From assembly GCA_012514615.1 (NCBI GenBank), contig JAAYZY010000535.1, positions 1 to 5,715 of the forward strand: DNA of 5,715 nt. Reading direction: 5' to 3'. The translations under genes were made by a program, and so were the position numbers. Below, one piece after another: positions 1 through 5,052 of the stretch. How positions within the stretch are numbered: the first letter of the stretch is position 1; each line of letters starts with the position of its first letter. The notes under the pieces are model-generated. The model was not told the origin of the DNA, did no database searches, and saw only the letters and a list, made by a program, of their open reading frames with translations. This stretch comes from Chloroflexota bacterium (lineage in GTDB: Bacteria; Chloroflexota; Anaerolineae; DTPP01).

Positions 1-769
1 CAGCCAGCAGGGCCACCTGATGGCCGCGGTACCACTGCTTGGCATACTCGGCCTTGCCCTCGATCATGCCGTAGTGACGCATGACGTTGAGGTAAGCCGC
101 GGCGAACCGCTGGCCGATGAAGTGGAAGTCGGTCTTCAGCATCTTGCTCCAGCCGCCCCACTCCACGGTGATGCCGCCGCCGCCCTGCTCGGCGATCATG
201 CCGGTGGGGCTGCCGCGGCCCACGCCGCTGGTGTTCACCAAGTTCCACTCAGGCCCCATGGCGCCGGCCAACTCCAGAGAGGCTGGCGTTTCCGCGGCGA
301 AGATGGCCGACTCAAGGTAGGAGTGCTCGCCGCCGGAATGCACGGCAATCTGCAGGTCGCAGTTGTCTTTCATGGCGGTCCAATGGGCCCAGCCCACCCG
401 CTCAGTGGCATAGCCGTCCGGCTTGCCGGGGTAGATGCGGTTCAGGTCGTAGGAGAAGGTGTCGCGGGGGTCGCCGCGGTTGCCAGCCGTGAACGCTTCG
501 ATGTTCAGGGCAGGCACGGCCACCAAGGTACCCTTCATCTTTTTCGGGTCCAACTGCTTCAGCAGCAGCATGATGGAGTAGGGGCCTTCCGGCTCGTCGC
601 CGTGGGTCGCCCCGTTGATCCACAGGCGGGGGCCGTCTTCCACGCCGCGGTAGACGATGATGGGCATCTCCCGGCGGCGGCCGTAGAGGTCCACGCCCAA
701 GGGGATGCCTCCGCGCTTGGCTTCGCCCGGCATCACCGTCACGTTGCCGATAGTCATCGGTTTTGCCAT
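1..769 (-). CDS. M14-family deacylase (succinylglutamate desuccinylase/aspartoacylase type), 3' end cut by window
   Basis: This is a probable cytoplasmic zinc-dependent amidohydrolase of the AstE/AspA branch of the M14 carboxypeptidase fold, which removes acyl groups from N-acylated amino acids or similar compounds. The visible 256 residues hold a complete-looking catalytic set: THGDE at 55-59 (zinc ligands His56 and Glu59), DLNR at 108-111 (substrate-binding Asn-Arg), a third zinc ligand His144 in IAVHSGG, and the likely general base Glu203 in ITVEWGG. No signal peptide is seen. The ATG at 769 follows AGGAG with an 8-nt spacer. A second Met at codon 5 is a weaker option. The C-terminus lies beyond base 1. 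It is the last visible gene of the run, 90 nt after the aminotransferase, and may act on that enzyme's substrate or product. N-acetyl-diaminobutyrate deacetylases (DoeB) fall in the same broad family, so the acyl group and substrate are open. The family call is firm; the specificity is not known. Confidence 0.88.
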   Translation of the reverse strand, partial: MAKPMTIGNVTVMPGEAKRGGIPLGVDLYGRRREMPIIVYRGVEDGPRLWINGATHGDEPEGPYSIMLLLKQLDPKKMKGTLVAVPALNIEAFTAGNRGDPRDTFSYDLNRIYPGKPDGYATERVGWAHWTAMKDNCDLQIAVHSGGEHSYLESAIFAAETPASLELAGAMGPEWNLVNTSGVGRGSPTGMIAEQGGGGITVEWGGWSKMLKTDFHFIGQRFAAAYLNVMRHYGMIEGKAEYAKQWYRGHQVALLA

Positions 770-859: not shown

Positions 860-2023
860 CTACTTCTTGACGTGCTCAGCGATGGTGCGCTTCATGCGGG
901 CCACCGCTTCCTGCAGACGCTCTTTGGGAGCCAGCAGGGAGATGCGCAGGTACTGTCCGCCGGACTCGCCGAAGGCGTTGCCGGGGAAGATGAGCACCCG
1001 CCCCTCTTTCAGGAAGAGGTACGAGAGCTCTTCGGCTGAGATGCCCACGCTGGAGGCATCGGGGAAGGCGTAGAACGCCCCCTTGGGCCGCCCGTAGGTG
1101 AAGCCCATCTCGTCCAGGCCCTGCATCATGATCTGGCGACGCTCGTCGTAGATGCGGCGGAAGCGTTCCACGCAGTCCTGCGGCCCGGTGAAGGCAGCAT
1201 GTGCGCCCCACTGGGAGATGACCGAGGTGCCGCGGTTGGCGCTGATCTTCATGGCCCGCATGGCGGCGATGATCGACGCTGGGGCCGCCACGTAGCCGAC
1301 GCGCCAGCCGGTCATGGCGTAGGTTTTGGAGACGCCGTTGAGGGTGATGGTGCGTTCTTTCATCCCCGGCAGCGAGGCGATGCTCATGTGCTGGGCGTCG
1401 TCGTAGATGAACTTCTCGTAGATCTCGTCAGAGATGACGATGAGGTTGCGCTCCTGGGCGATCTCGGCCAGGCGGCGGATGCTCTTGGGCGAGATGACGC
1501 CGGAGGTGGGGTTGCCCGGGGTTACCAGCAGCAAGACCTTGCTCTTGGGCCCGATGCGCTTCTCCACCTCCTCAGGGCGCAGGTCGAAGCTGTCTTCCTG
1601 GTAGGTGGGCACAGGGACGATCTTGCCGCCGGCCACGTGGATAGCGGCATCGTAGGAGGTGTAGCGCGGGTCCGGCACCAACACCTCATCGCCGGGGTTC
1701 AGCAGCGACTGAATCAGGAAGAAGAGCGCCTCCTGGCCGCCGCCGGTCACCAGCACTTCCGTGGCCGGGTCGACCAGCACGTTGTTCTCCCGCCGCAACT
1801 TGTCGGCGATGGCCTGGCGCAGCTCGAAGAGCCCCTCGGCCGGGGCCGGCTGCAGGGCCGCGCCGCGCCGCAGCGCATCTTTGGCCGCCTGAACGATGTG
1901 CGCCGGCGTATCCTGGTCGGGGTCGCCGCGGCCCAGGGCGATGACATCGGGCAGGGTCTTGGCCAGCTCCATCATCTCGTAGCGGATGCTGGTACCCTTC
2001 TCGGCTACCTTCTTCTGGCTCAT
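860..2023 (-). CDS. PLP-dependent class I/II aminotransferase, lysine-bearing partner
   Basis: This 387-residue fold-type I aminotransferase is close to the aspartate-aminotransferase family in length and motif order. It would move an amino group between an amino acid and a 2-oxo acid using PLP. The motifs are GRGDPDQDTP (31-40), GGGQEAL (94-100), PLP-stacking Tyr121 in DPRYTSY, Asn171 in PGNPTSG, Asp199 and Tyr202 in SDEIY, Schiff-base Lys233 in GVSKTYAMTGWRVGY with phosphate-binding Arg241, and carboxylate-binding Arg360 in YLRIS. One key residue is missing: where relatives have a Tyr (AspAT Tyr70, donated across the dimer to the partner's PLP phosphate), this protein reads LQPAPAEG with Pro59, and there is no aromatic residue from 52 to 64. 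The start at 2023 is chosen for its AGGAGG with a 6-nt spacer. An in-frame ATG at 2119 would add 32 residues translated from inside the upstream gene. The start overlaps the upstream stop as ATGA, so the two are probably translated together. The amino-acid substrate is unknown. Confidence 0.9.
   Translation of the reverse strand: MSQKKVAEKGTSIRYEMMELAKTLPDVIALGRGDPDQDTPAHIVQAAKDALRRGAALQPAPAEGLFELRQAIADKLRRENNVLVDPATEVLVTGGGQEALFFLIQSLLNPGDEVLVPDPRYTSYDAAIHVAGGKIVPVPTYQEDSFDLRPEEVEKRIGPKSKVLLLVTPGNPTSGVISPKSIRRLAEIAQERNLIVISDEIYEKFIYDDAQHMSIASLPGMKERTITLNGVSKTYAMTGWRVGYVAAPASIIAAMRAMKISANRGTSVISQWGAHAAFTGPQDCVERFRRIYDERRQIMMQGLDEMGFTYGRPKGAFYAFPDASSVGISAEELSYLFLKEGRVLIFPGNAFGESGGQYLRISLLAPKERLQEAVARMKRTIAEHVKK
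2020..2023 (-). other. ATGA stop/start overlap coupling the two aminotransferase genes
   Basis: The TGA at 2020-2022 ends the upstream aminotransferase paralog, and the ATG at 2021-2023 starts the downstream one. This 4-nt overlap usually goes with translational coupling and similar amounts of both proteins, which fits subunits of one complex. Confidence 0.85.
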
Positions 2024-3216
2024 GCTGCACCTCCTGCCCGCACGTTCAAGGCCCACTTCAGGCGCCGCATGGCCTGTTCCAGGTCCGACATGGTGGGCCA
2101 GAGGGAGATGCGCACCCACCCTTCACCCTTGGCGCCGAAGACCGGGCCTGGCAGCACGGCCACCCGCGCCTCCGAGAGCAGCCAGCAGGCGAACGGTTCG
2201 GCCTTCTTGCCACTGCTGCGCACATCCACGAAGACGTAGGGCGTGGCCTGCGGCTGGCTGTGGGGCAACCCCAGTTCATCCAGAGCCGCCAGCACCAGGG
2301 CGCGCTTGGCGTCCATCTCAGCGCGGCGGGCCTCCACCCAGCCCTGGGGGCCGGTCATGGCTTCCAAGGCCGCGAACTGGGCCATGGCGCTGGTGCAGAT
2401 GGTGATAGCCTGCTTCAGGTCCCGCACCGGCGTCACCAGCTCCTTGGGGCCGGCGAAGTAGCCGACCCGCCAGCTGGCCAAGCCGTAGAGGTACGAGAAG
2501 CTGCACACAGTGAGGGTGTGCGGGGCCGCGGCGGGCACAGAGGCCAAGCTCACGTGCCGCGCGTGCTGCCCCAGCCCTTCGTCCAGCGACTCATCGGCGA
2601 TGACGGTGAGCCGGTGCTCGGCCACCAGGTCGGCGATGCGCCCGATCTCCTCAGCGGAGAGGACGGCCCCGCTGGGCGTGGCCGGGTTGACCAGCAACAG
2701 CAGCTTGCTCTTGGGGGTTAGGCGGCTCTTGATCTGGGCCGCGGTCATGGCGAAGCCATCGGCGGCGCGCAACGGCACCGGCACCAGCGTGGCCTGCGAC
2801 AGGCGCACGCCCTCATCCACAAAGGCCGGGCGCAGCTCCGGCGCCAGCACTTCGTCGCCGGCGCTGGCCAGCACCTGCAGCCCCACGAAGACGCCCTCGC
2901 GTCCACCGTTGCTGATGACCACACCGCTGCCGGCATCCACCGTGACGCCCTGCAGCGCGGCAAGCTTGGCTGCCACTGCCTTGCGCAAGGCCGGCACGCC
3001 TGGCCGGTCGGTGTAGTGCGTCTCGCCCTGGTCCAGCGACGCTTCCACCGCCGCCAAGACGTTCTCTGGAAGCACCGGATCGCCCGAGTCGCCGCTGAGG
3101 TCGATGGTGTGTTCGAAGCGCATCTCGCGCGGCCAGCCCGAAGCCGGCTCCACCACCCGCCAACGCTCAGCCCGCTGGGCGATGGCCGATGCCATCGGTC
3201 CCATAGTCTGCTCCAT
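2020..3216 (-). CDS. Aminotransferase-fold paralog lacking the PLP lysine (likely pseudoenzyme subunit)
   Basis: This 398-residue protein aligns along its length with the class I/II aminotransferase encoded directly downstream, but its own PLP pocket is degraded. The canonical SK(T/S) lysine motif reads SFSYLYGLASWRVGY, with Tyr242 (codon TAC at 2491-2493, two base changes from a Lys codon) in place of the Schiff-base lysine. The residue equivalent to AspAT Asn194 is Thr180 (NPATPSG), Tyr225 is Leu211 (ADESL), and the PLP-stacking aromatic is Pro130. It keeps Asp208, Arg250, Arg369 and HYTDRPG (66-73), whose Tyr68 matches the tyrosine that reaches across the dimer. The frame is intact and the flanking motifs are well kept, so it does not look like a decaying gene. 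It follows an 80-nt gap with a palindrome and overlaps the next gene by ATGA. The most likely role, by inference, is the non-catalytic half of a heterodimer with that partner. It could instead be a regulatory or binding protein. The start at 3216 has AGGAGG 12 nt upstream, rather far; Met5 and Met8 are alternatives. Confidence 0.85.
   Translation of the reverse strand: MEQTMGPMASAIAQRAERWRVVEPASGWPREMRFEHTIDLSGDSGDPVLPENVLAAVEASLDQGETHYTDRPGVPALRKAVAAKLAALQGVTVDAGSGVVISNGGREGVFVGLQVLASAGDEVLAPELRPAFVDEGVRLSQATLVPVPLRAADGFAMTAAQIKSRLTPKSKLLLLVNPATPSGAVLSAEEIGRIADLVAEHRLTVIADESLDEGLGQHARHVSLASVPAAAPHTLTVCSFSYLYGLASWRVGYFAGPKELVTPVRDLKQAITICTSAMAQFAALEAMTGPQGWVEARRAEMDAKRALVLAALDELGLPHSQPQATPYVFVDVRSSGKKAEPFACWLLSEARVAVLPGPVFGAKGEGWVRISLWPTMSDLEQAMRRLKWALNVRAGGAA
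2028..2035 (-). promoter_or_regulatory. Shine-Dalgarno site deciding the start at 2023
   Basis: AGGAGGTG sits inside the last codons of the upstream paralog, with 6 nt between AGGAGG and the ATG. It argues strongly for the start at 2023 and against the longer reading from 2119. Confidence 0.75.
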
Positions 3217-3296: not shown

Positions 3297-4181
3297 CTAA
3301 CGGAAGGCCCCCAGGCCCATGATGCGGGCCATGTTGGCCTTGGCATCGTGCACCGGCTCGATCTCGGCCGTCGGGCCGGTGAGGAAGCAGACCAGGCCGG
3401 GCCCGAAGCCCACGCGCACGCTGTCGCCGTGGCAGACGATGCCCACGGAAGTGGCGCCCCGCAGGTAGCCGGGGGCATAGGTGGTGTCATAGTCGCGCAC
3501 AGCGATCACGTCGCCCAGCCGCAGGTCCTTCAGGCCGTACTCTTCCACCATGCCGGGCGAGTTGGTCTGGAGCTGCAGCGCGCCGCCGTCGGAATCCAGG
3601 CCGGCGCCTGCGCCCATGAGCTCAGCCGGCAACGTAGCCACCACCGGCACCTGCAGCTTGCCGCCCTGCACCTTGATGCCCATGCGCTCGGCCAGGCCGG
3701 GGTCGATGTTCTTCACCGTGACGTTGGGGAAGCCCTCGATGGCGGCACCCAACCCGTAGGCCCGCACCTGGATGGCGTCGCCCACGGCCAGTGTCTCCAT
3801 GGCCTCCGGGGGGAAGTCCAGGATCAGATGATCCATGAAGCGCCCGCTCTTGCCGGCGACCACACCCTTGGCCCCCTTGGCCCGGCCGCTCATGACCACC
3901 GCCTCGTTGCCCAGGCAGGCGAAGACCTTCAGCGCCCGGTGGGCCGCCGCGTCTTTGCTGCGGATGCTCACGCCGGGCTCGATCACCTCGGCCAGCCAGC
4001 CCATGGCCGGGTCGCCGATGCGCACGTTGTAGACGATGCCGCCGTTCAGCGGCAGCAGGCTCAGGGTCCCCTCTCGAGTCATGAAGTGAGGGGTCCAAGG
4101 CACTGTGGGGAAGCCGGGGGCATCAATGTTGCCCATGACCGAGATCTTGACCAGCTTTTCCTTGTTCTTGATCTTCAGCAT
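3297..4181 (-). CDS. DUF4438 family protein, second tandem copy
   Basis: This 294-residue protein of a family with no assigned function is plainly a paralog of the gene just upstream. Shared blocks are LVKISVMG (10-17), GIVYNVRIGDPAMGW (48-62), EPGVSI (68-73), ACLGNEAVV (88-96), a central DFPPE, LRLGD (220-224), VRD (228-230), HGD (251-253) and TAEIEP (271-276). No signal peptide or membrane segment is seen. The ATG at 4181 is chosen because AAGGAGA lies 7 nt upstream and because the N-terminus then lines up with the paralog. An ATG at 4211 would overlap the upstream gene by 17 nt and add 10 unmatched residues. Some polar positions of the first copy are changed here: Asp192 and Asp194 become Ala201 and Gln203, and the GHGPG histidine becomes Phe259. 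It may be a structural or specialised partner of the first copy. A role in the same pathway is inferred from gene order only. Confidence 0.82.
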   Translation of the reverse strand: MLKIKNKEKLVKISVMGNIDAPGFPTVPWTPHFMTREGTLSLLPLNGGIVYNVRIGDPAMGWLAEVIEPGVSIRSKDAAAHRALKVFACLGNEAVVMSGRAKGAKGVVAGKSGRFMDHLILDFPPEAMETLAVGDAIQVRAYGLGAAIEGFPNVTVKNIDPGLAERMGIKVQGGKLQVPVVATLPAELMGAGAGLDSDGGALQLQTNSPGMVEEYGLKDLRLGDVIAVRDYDTTYAPGYLRGATSVGIVCHGDSVRVGFGPGLVCFLTGPTAEIEPVHDAKANMARIMGLGAFR

Positions 4182-4188
4182 GACAGTC

Positions 4189-4195
4189 TCTCCTT
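4189..4195 (-). promoter_or_regulatory. Shine-Dalgarno site deciding the start of the second DUF4438 gene
   Basis: AAGGAGA directly abuts and shares a base with the TAA stop (4195-4197) of the upstream copy, with 7 nt to the ATG at 4181. The tight spacing suggests coupled translation of the two DUF4438 proteins and rules against the start at 4211. Confidence 0.7.
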
Positions 4196-5052
4196 TATGC
4201 CCACCGGCCAAATTTCAGGTAGTTGCCAATGTTGGCATCGGGATCGATTTCGGGGATGATGTGCGCCGTGGCGCACGAAAGCAGGGTCATCACCCCAGGC
4301 CCGTGCCCGGTCTGGAAGCAGTCGCCGTGGTTGATGAGGCCGATGGCGATGGCTCCCTTCTGGTAACCGCGGCCGGTGCTGTGATCCTGATCCCGGATCG
4401 CCACCAGGTCGCCCAGGCGCAGGCTCAGCAGGCCCAGGCTCTCCACCCAAGAGCGGTCTTCGGTCATCATGTCTTGGTCCACGTACTCGGGGAAGAGCTC
4501 CATGCCCGAGCCCATGATCTGCGGCGGCAGCTCGTGGGCCACCGGCACCACGATCTTGCCATCGCCGGCTTCGCGGATGCGCATCGCTTCCAGGAGTTGC
4601 GGGCTGCATTTGCGCACGGCGATGTGGGGGTAGTCCACCATGGCCAAGCCCAGCCCCTCGGTGAGGATCTGGATGCGGTCGCCCACGCACATCCGCTCCA
4701 GCTCTTCAGGGGCGAAGTCGATGAGCAGCCGGGCGTGCTCGCCGGAGACGATGCCCCGGGTACCCGCCGCGTCGCCCGAGGCCACCACCGCCTCGTTGCC
4801 CACGCAGGTGAGGTAGTGCATGGCGTAGTCGGCCTGCGTGTCGGCGTTGTGGATGGAGACGCCAGGCTCCAAGTGGTCGGCCTCCCAGCCAAACGCTGGA
4901 TCGCCTACCCGGGTACTGTAGACGATGCCGGCCATGCCGATGGAGAACTTGGCTCGACCGCTGTTGTCTGGCCCGTAGCCGCGCAGCGCTGGCGGGGAGA
5001 TCTCCCCCAGCACCGCCATCTTGACCAGACGGTCCTTGTTGGTGCGAATCAT
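4195..5052 (-). CDS. DUF4438 family protein, first tandem copy
   Basis: This 285-residue protein of unknown function is recognised as DUF4438 by its blocks: GIVYSTRVGDPAFGW (42-56), EPGVSI (62-67), TCVGNEAVVASG (82-93), DFAPEELE (112-119), LRLGD (211-215), IRDQD (219-223), NHGD (241-244), GHGPGV (249-254) and TAHIIPEIDPDAN (262-274). The many glycine turns and short hydrophobic runs suggest a compact beta-rich soluble protein; no export signal is seen. Cys83 before GNEAVV is also present in the second copy. Residues that could bind metal or act in catalysis are His242, Asp244, His250, Asp192 and Asp194. That is a guess from their polar, motif-embedded nature. The ATG at 5052 has AAGGAGG 5 nt upstream. 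It follows the DegT-type gene by 27 nt and the second copy by tight linkage. Its place among aminotransferases and a deacylase suggests a metabolic role, but no reaction can be assigned. Confidence 0.85.
   Translation of the reverse strand: MIRTNKDRLVKMAVLGEISPPALRGYGPDNSGRAKFSIGMAGIVYSTRVGDPAFGWEADHLEPGVSIHNADTQADYAMHYLTCVGNEAVVASGDAAGTRGIVSGEHARLLIDFAPEELERMCVGDRIQILTEGLGLAMVDYPHIAVRKCSPQLLEAMRIREAGDGKIVVPVAHELPPQIMGSGMELFPEYVDQDMMTEDRSWVESLGLLSLRLGDLVAIRDQDHSTGRGYQKGAIAIGLINHGDCFQTGHGPGVMTLLSCATAHIIPEIDPDANIGNYLKFGRWA

Follow-up and report, generated by a model that had tools for sequence, protein, structure and literature searches.

How can two adjacent aminotransferase genes, neither of which encodes a complete active site, be kept side by side in a bacterial genome? 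The question is raised by a 5,715-nt stretch of DNA from a Chloroflexota bacterium (contig JAAYZY010000535.1, assembly GCA_012514615.1), hereafter the window, which carries on its minus strand two overlapping aminotransferase-like genes, called here beta (upstream) and alpha (downstream). A first-pass annotation had interpreted the two products as a mixed dimer with one working site. Comparison of the sequences with those of their relatives supports this interpretation, and alpha and beta very probably make up one heteromeric pyridoxal 5'-phosphate (PLP) aminotransferase with a single composite site. The features on which the argument depends, all on the minus strand, are as follows, with residues named after their aspartate aminotransferase (AspAT) equivalents.

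860..2023, minus strand: alpha, class I aminotransferase, catalytic chain, with Lys233 and the full cis set and with Pro59 at the Tyr70 position (alignment, tree)
2020..3216, minus strand: beta, aminotransferase paralog without the lysine, keeping both trans segments (Tyr68; I273-C274-T275) (alignment, tree, fold model)
2020..2023, minus strand: ATGA overlap between the beta stop and the alpha start codon (sequence)
1325..1327, minus strand: alpha Lys233 codon, the Schiff-base lysine (AspAT Lys258) (alignment)
1847..1849, minus strand: alpha Pro59 codon, Tyr70 position (alignment)
1226..1234, minus strand: alpha R264-G265-T266, diverged second trans segment (alignment)
2491..2493, minus strand: beta Tyr242 codon, Lys258 position (alignment)
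3013..3015, minus strand: beta Tyr68 codon, Tyr70 equivalent, predicted to reach the partner's site in trans (alignment)
2392..2400, minus strand: beta I273-C274-T275, second trans segment, in the region of AlaA residue 276 (alignment, column scan, PMC4094517)

Complementary losses in the two chains

The first shell of the E. coli AspAT active site is described as 16 residues, including Tyr70, Trp140, Asn194, Asp222, Tyr225, Lys258, Arg266, Arg292 and Arg386 (PMC3823064), and the lysine as absolutely conserved among catalytically active aminotransferases (PMC9309667). Tyr70* and the 292*/296* residues work in trans, as contributions of the neighbouring subunit or by acting on it (PMC4094517, PMC9309667). 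The Tyr70 equivalents are Y65 in AspC (sequential numbering), which likely contacts the PLP phosphate of the other subunit (PMC9309667), and Y68 in AlaA, supplied by the opposite subunit; AspAT Ser296* and Arg292*, also from the opposite subunit, are replaced in AlaA by Ile276* and Tyr15 (PMC4094517).

Both window genes were confirmed as open reading frames (ORFs) with the overlap noted above. Both products match PF00155 (alpha with 239 bits), and residue correspondences were taken from an alignment that included E. coli AspC and AlaA. Alpha keeps Tyr121 (at Trp140), Asn171, Asp199, Tyr202, Lys233 and Arg241 and has Pro59 at Tyr70; beta keeps Tyr68 and has Pro130, Thr180, Leu211 and Tyr242 at Trp140, Asn194, Tyr225 and Lys258, all as the first-pass annotation had read them. 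Asp208 and Arg250 are retained in beta. Alpha Arg360, claimed as the Arg386 equivalent, is indeed aligned with AlaA Arg378, as is beta Arg369, a match that depends on AlaA alone because AspC is gapped there. Alpha therefore has the features of a class I aminotransferase (PF00155, the lysine, Asn194, Asp222, Tyr225, Arg266 and Arg386) except the Tyr70 equivalent, and beta alone lacks the Schiff-base lysine of the catalytic members. A second segment, overlooked earlier, is divided likewise, with I273-C274-T275 in beta and R264-G265-T266 in alpha; beta I273 is aligned to AlaA position 276, which is Leu in the K-12 sequence used. A shifted alignment masking another alpha Tyr at position 70 was considered and rejected, Pro59 sitting there with both AspC and AlaA. 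Alpha has one extra residue ahead of this loop, and the alphas of two other loci (L002 and L003) with the same extra residue have Tyr at position 70.

Relatives were collected from proteins and genomes. A protein search with beta gave 114 matches, of which 26 besides the window copy (P0008-P0032, P0034) are close relatives with 43-63% identity. At the lysine position 20 of them have R, three K, two Y and one F, and Tyr70 is present in 24/24 readable sequences. Arginine is the usual replacement in this subclade of the window's beta, the Tyr of the window being a minority state. Among the best 120 of 7999 candidates from the alpha protein search, the other 119 (window excluded) all have the lysine and none has Tyr70. 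Plasmid records contained distant beta relatives only, below 60% identity in 1157/1157 records. A genome scan with beta patterns gave 74 loci, and genome searches with an alpha alignment, at E limits from 1e-40 to 1e-134 and with lone relatives counted among the matches, matched 15/15, 2/199, 3/201, 11/158, 27/249 and 57/154 genomes; in the larger searches scoring was confined to the best candidates per genome. Joint scoring of the loci up to L221 together with the window yielded 296 distinct aminotransferase-like genes, arranged as 100 tandem pairs (the window and 99 loci) and 96 lone genes. The pairs come mostly from Chloroflexota, and also from Trueperaceae (Deinococcota) and Microvirga (Pseudomonadota). 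Many are closely related, because only identical or contained sequences were merged.

The order of the pairs is beta upstream and alpha downstream. Alpha has Lys258, Tyr at 140, N194, D222, Y225, R266 and R386 in 100/100 cases each and has lost Tyr70 in 74/100, where it is most often replaced by P (21), L (18), A (12) or V (9) and otherwise by one of nine further residue types. Beta has Tyr70 in 98/98 readable sequences (the L141 and L156 betas run off their contigs and were dropped from the Tyr count, the dN/dS analysis and the pair trees) and keeps Lys in 2/100, Y225 in 2/100 and N194 in 3/100, with Asp222 kept in 95/100 and Arg266 in 59/100. At the second loop IC[TS] or LCT is found in 100/100 betas but in 0/100 alphas. 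As in serine palmitoyltransferase (SPT), one chain lacks the lysine and its partner bears it in 98/100 pairs. The beta-pattern scan favours betas with the trans motifs because the patterns contained those motifs; in the 79 pairs found via alpha, which are free of this bias, beta has the Tyr in 77/77, IC[TS] in 79/79 and the Lys in 0/79. The pattern in the window is not a product of chance, since it recurs in the 99 further tandem pairs. A stop/start overlap of four bases (ATGA, GTGA or TTGA) occurs in 51/100 pairs, a count of 4-base overlaps only, the spacing of the other 49 being poorly resolved.

The pairs differ in the state of beta. A subclass with a short beta comprises 50 pairs, with alpha Tyr in 0/50; 48/50 of these betas are complete, at 214-259 aa, and end just past the second loop. 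A subclass with a long, more diverged beta comprises 41 pairs, with alpha Tyr in 24/41 and beta Arg266 lost in 41/41. The remaining 9 pairs, window included, have alpha Tyr in 2/9. The diverged subclass consists of L090 (genome G003), L091 (G007) and 39 other loci, and its beta lysine has become Pro, Ser or His. Both kinds of pair lie about 10 kb apart in G003, whose alpha is nearest to that of the window in the tree.

A column scan in window beta numbering, which compared representatives of alpha (27), beta (26) and the lone genes (39), found only eight columns with conservation of at least 88% in beta and less than 60% in alpha (61, 64, 66, 67, 68, 273, 274 and 283). All eight fall in two segments which, in published structures, extend across the dimer interface, with a hypergeometric p of ~2e-9 for 8/8 columns in stretches 60-74 and 265-284, which were chosen after the result. 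The reverse set (alpha at least 95%, beta below 50%) has 33 columns, including 130, 180, 211 and 242, some of them absent from short betas. Ten columns are conserved in both chains.

Lone relatives, selection and history

The lone genes bear on a different explanation, two independent homodimers of altered chemistry, with alpha a Tyr70-less aminotransferase or lyase and beta a non-PLP enzyme. The best NCBIfam model for both chains, GntC (NF041364), is a PLP cyclodehydratase and would be in keeping with such a change, although the scores of 337.5 and 245.4 bits are well under the 415 cut-off and place neither chain in that family. Tyr70 and Lys are both kept in 90/96 lone genes. The six others are two cut genes (L053, L087), an alpha-type and a beta-type gene that are unlinked in one genome (L093 and L042, G012) and an alpha and a beta at contig ends in another (L095 and L062, G013). 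The first-pass annotation had named homologs found alone with the same substitutions as evidence against a mixed dimer; among the 96 lone genes either change occurs only in the two genomes having both alpha and beta, and no such contrary case is among them. Loss of the Tyr was seen in 74/100 genes with an adjacent partner vs 2/92 without (Fisher p 6e-28, shared ancestry ignored), the cut L053 and L087 being dropped from this table and from the tree, and the Lys-less L042 and L062 from the table. The losses are, moreover, complementary, and the small domain is absent from half of the betas. Two separate homodimers are thus very improbable.

In a 93-row tree alpha forms one clade (SH-aLRT 100), and beta needs two label changes, which is still compatible with a single origin. 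Eight lone genes with Tyr and Lys are sister to alpha (support 85 and 83 at two forks). The lone alpha sisters with both residues (L084, L085, L086, L089, L092, L094, L114 and L218) are probable homodimeric relatives of the ancestor; by eye, an amidohydrolase-like ORF lies beside L085 and a VOC-like ORF beside L086. One genome has two lone alpha-like genes, both with Tyr and Lys, about 7 kb from each other (L096; G187 C2 328000-347000), and in genome G002 a further such gene lies some 15 kb away from a pair of the short-beta kind.

The subclades of alpha and beta mostly correspond, including the unlinked L093/L042 beside L103 in both; the deeper order differs between the chains, with weak support at several forks. 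Between the two chains, pairwise distances are correlated with r of 0.94 over 98 pairs, uncorrected for the species tree and with the Tyr column left in the tree. Alpha has lost Tyr70 at least 10 times if regain is allowed and 13 times if it is not. One locus in which both chains have Tyr and Lys (L002) and one in which beta has lost the Lys and alpha kept the Tyr (L003) look like early steps. L001 is an exception, its alpha having lost the Tyr and its beta kept the Lys, yet the W140 and Y225 positions of this beta are already Pro and Leu.

It could also be argued that beta lies beside alpha incidentally, as a pseudogene in decay or as a protein that works separately and without PLP. Its median pairwise tree distance is 1.8 times that of alpha, and its catalytic residues and often the C-terminal domain are lost, as decay would have it. 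The dN/dS of beta, however, has a median of 0.23, which indicates purifying selection, and the highest of 34 comparisons is 0.31. The same pairing and gene order are seen in Trueperaceae (Deinococcota) and Microvirga (Pseudomonadota) as well as in Chloroflexota, and the conserved beta columns are specific. Pseudogene decay was rejected on these three grounds, and the explanation as a whole is hardly credible.

The predicted single-chain structure of the window beta has a large PLP domain and a small C-terminal domain (pLDDT 88, pTM 0.86), and its nearest folds are 1gd9 and 1dju (TM 0.85 to 1gd9). The P. horikoshii aminotransferases 1dju/1gd9 are also the nearest solved sequences for both chains. 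The model of a short beta (L013) has the large domain only. No alpha-oxoamine synthase (AOS) model was among the 25 NCBIfam matches listed per chain, of 82 and 65.

A predicted composite active site

In the proposed heteromer alpha would provide the PLP lysine, the ring-stacking and ring-binding residues and the arginine for the substrate alpha-carboxylate, and transaminase chemistry would be retained. Beta would be a tandem-duplicated paralog that has lost its catalytic residues and, in many lineages, the whole small domain. As the physical dimer partner it would lend two loops to the alpha site, Tyr70* at the PLP phosphate and the Ile-Cys loop (292-297*) near the substrate side chain, where it may influence substrate choice; beta would persist because of this contribution. 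The second site of the dimer, with beta cis and alpha trans residues, would be dead, leaving one working site per alpha-beta pair. A more specific proposal, towards which we lean with some reserve, is that the pairs form an obligate two-subunit class I family in which beta, reduced to a scaffold of half size, serves catalysis solely through its two loops, as a separable specificity subunit, with exactly one site per pair.

The second loop calls for caution of its own. Its variability in lone enzymes would suit a substrate-specificity loop, judging from the sequences compared. Its first position is Ile in 14/14 lone genes of alpha's sister type vs 5/100 alphas, and alpha therefore seems to have drifted there. 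Because lone enzymes do not in general conserve the loop, this departure is weaker evidence than the loss of the Tyr.

Several observations weigh against the heteromer as drawn above. Tyr70 is kept in 26/100 alphas, most of them in the diverged subclass, and for these 26 an alpha homodimer would be missing no more than the Ile-Cys loop. The second loop is itself variable in lone enzymes, with IC[TS] or LCT in 7/96 genes and Ile and Cys in 38% and 44% of the lone representatives. Neither loop alone, for these two reasons, proves obligate pairing. The lysine is kept in the betas of L001 and L002 and in 3/26 beta database relatives (P0008, P0029, P0030). The 100 pairs are not independent and fall into 25 clusters at 78% alpha identity; the Fisher test and the mirror-tree correlation ignore shared ancestry. 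The first-pass annotation had also asked whether loss of the Lys in one chain and of the Tyr in the other always go together. Both are found in 73/100 pairs, which supports its interpretation, the alpha Tyr70 loss being common but not general: in 25 pairs only the beta Lys is lost, in one only the alpha Tyr (L001) and in one neither (L002).

The retained alpha Tyr70 and the variable second loop would also be expected if beta were a regulatory or stabilising pseudoenzyme, an alpha homodimer doing the work, beta modulating or chaperoning it and the conserved loops serving as dimer contacts rather than in catalysis. There is a precedent in SPT2, described as unstable without its Lys-less partner SPT1 (PMC6148460). 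Against this, 74/100 alphas are without Tyr70, whereas 90/96 lone relatives keep Tyr70 and Lys, and the columns conserved in beta and loose in alpha are confined to the two segments found at the partner's active site in the structures as published. We therefore regard a purely regulatory beta as unlikely and retain the composite site as the preferred reading.

Gene neighbourhood and known systems

On the window minus strand the genes follow one another, in the direction of transcription, as a DegT-type fragment, a pair of DUF4438 genes, beta (3216-2020), alpha (2023-860) and an AstE/AspA-type gene. The neighbours are:

3297..4181, minus strand: DUF4438 protein, co-conserved neighbour (domain match)
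4195..5052, minus strand: second DUF4438 protein (domain match)
2..769, minus strand: AstE/AspA-type deacylase, its 3' end beyond the window (domain match)

Neighbours were compared over 30 pair loci, window included, as homologous-ORF clusters (single linkage, uncurated). The most frequent are Ldh_2 dehydrogenase (24), SDR (17), DUF4438 (16), an oligopeptide-type binding protein (16), VOC (14), AstE (12), GntR (11, by eye) and S9 peptidase (9), followed by amidohydrolase (7), M24 peptidase (6) and M14 peptidase (6). A frequent order among 20 loci is DUF4438, DUF4438, VOC, Ldh_2, beta, alpha. For the commonest neighbour, Ldh_2 (e.g. L229 7798-8862), the best NCBIfam model is L-sulfolactate dehydrogenase at 238.9 bits vs a 500-bit cut-off. 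The tandem DUF4438 proteins, named in no paper of the open-access literature searched, appear to be as yet unstudied members of the pathway to which the pairs belong. Together the oligopeptide-type transporter, deacylases and peptidases, Ldh_2 and DUF4438 suggest that an amino-acid-like or N-acyl compound is imported and catabolised. Ectoine catabolism, considered for the AstE and M24 neighbours, was rejected, the DoeB scores being 76.9 and 89.1 vs a 402.7-bit cut-off.

A Lys-bearing and a Lys-less homologous chain of fold type I are combined in the split glycine decarboxylase P-protein of some bacteria, a decarboxylase of a different family with an alpha2beta2 arrangement. By this analogy, heteromers of fold type I that include a Lys-less chain would not, in general, be without precedent in bacteria. 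Among the matches listed from the open-access literature, none described a bacterial or class I heterodimeric aminotransferase, and a 2022 review states that little is known about heteromultimers from monomers of different aminotransferases (PMC9309667).

The pairs provide a natural replicated series, from L002, with Tyr and Lys in both chains, through L003, with the beta Lys gone, to 10-13 losses of the alpha Tyr and betas cut to the large domain. With this series one can test directly how a homodimer with two symmetric sites gives way to a heteromer with one, and which residues each chain needs. It also matters for annotation, several betas being named aminotransferases in their source records although they lack the lysine.

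AspC, AlaA and the P. horikoshii aromatic aminotransferase (1dju/1gd9) share the fold and the active-site plan of the pairs. Homodimers are the general rule among aspartate aminotransferases (PMC6715241), and the AlaA dimer likewise consists of a single kind of chain (PMC4094517); unlike in the pairs, every chain of the AspC and AlaA homodimers gives both the cis and the trans set. SPT (SPT1/SPT2, or LCB1/LCB2) of eukaryotes differs in belonging to the AOS family, where its heterodimer is termed unique (PMC6148460), whereas the pairs are class I aminotransferases. In the portions of that source consulted, SPT1 is not described as reduced to its large domain alone, nor is SPT2 described as having lost its trans residues (PMC6148460), whereas half of the betas are without the small domain. 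What SPT has in common with the pairs is a fold-type I PLP heterodimer in which one chain lacks the lysine and, presumably, one site is formed (PMC6148460).

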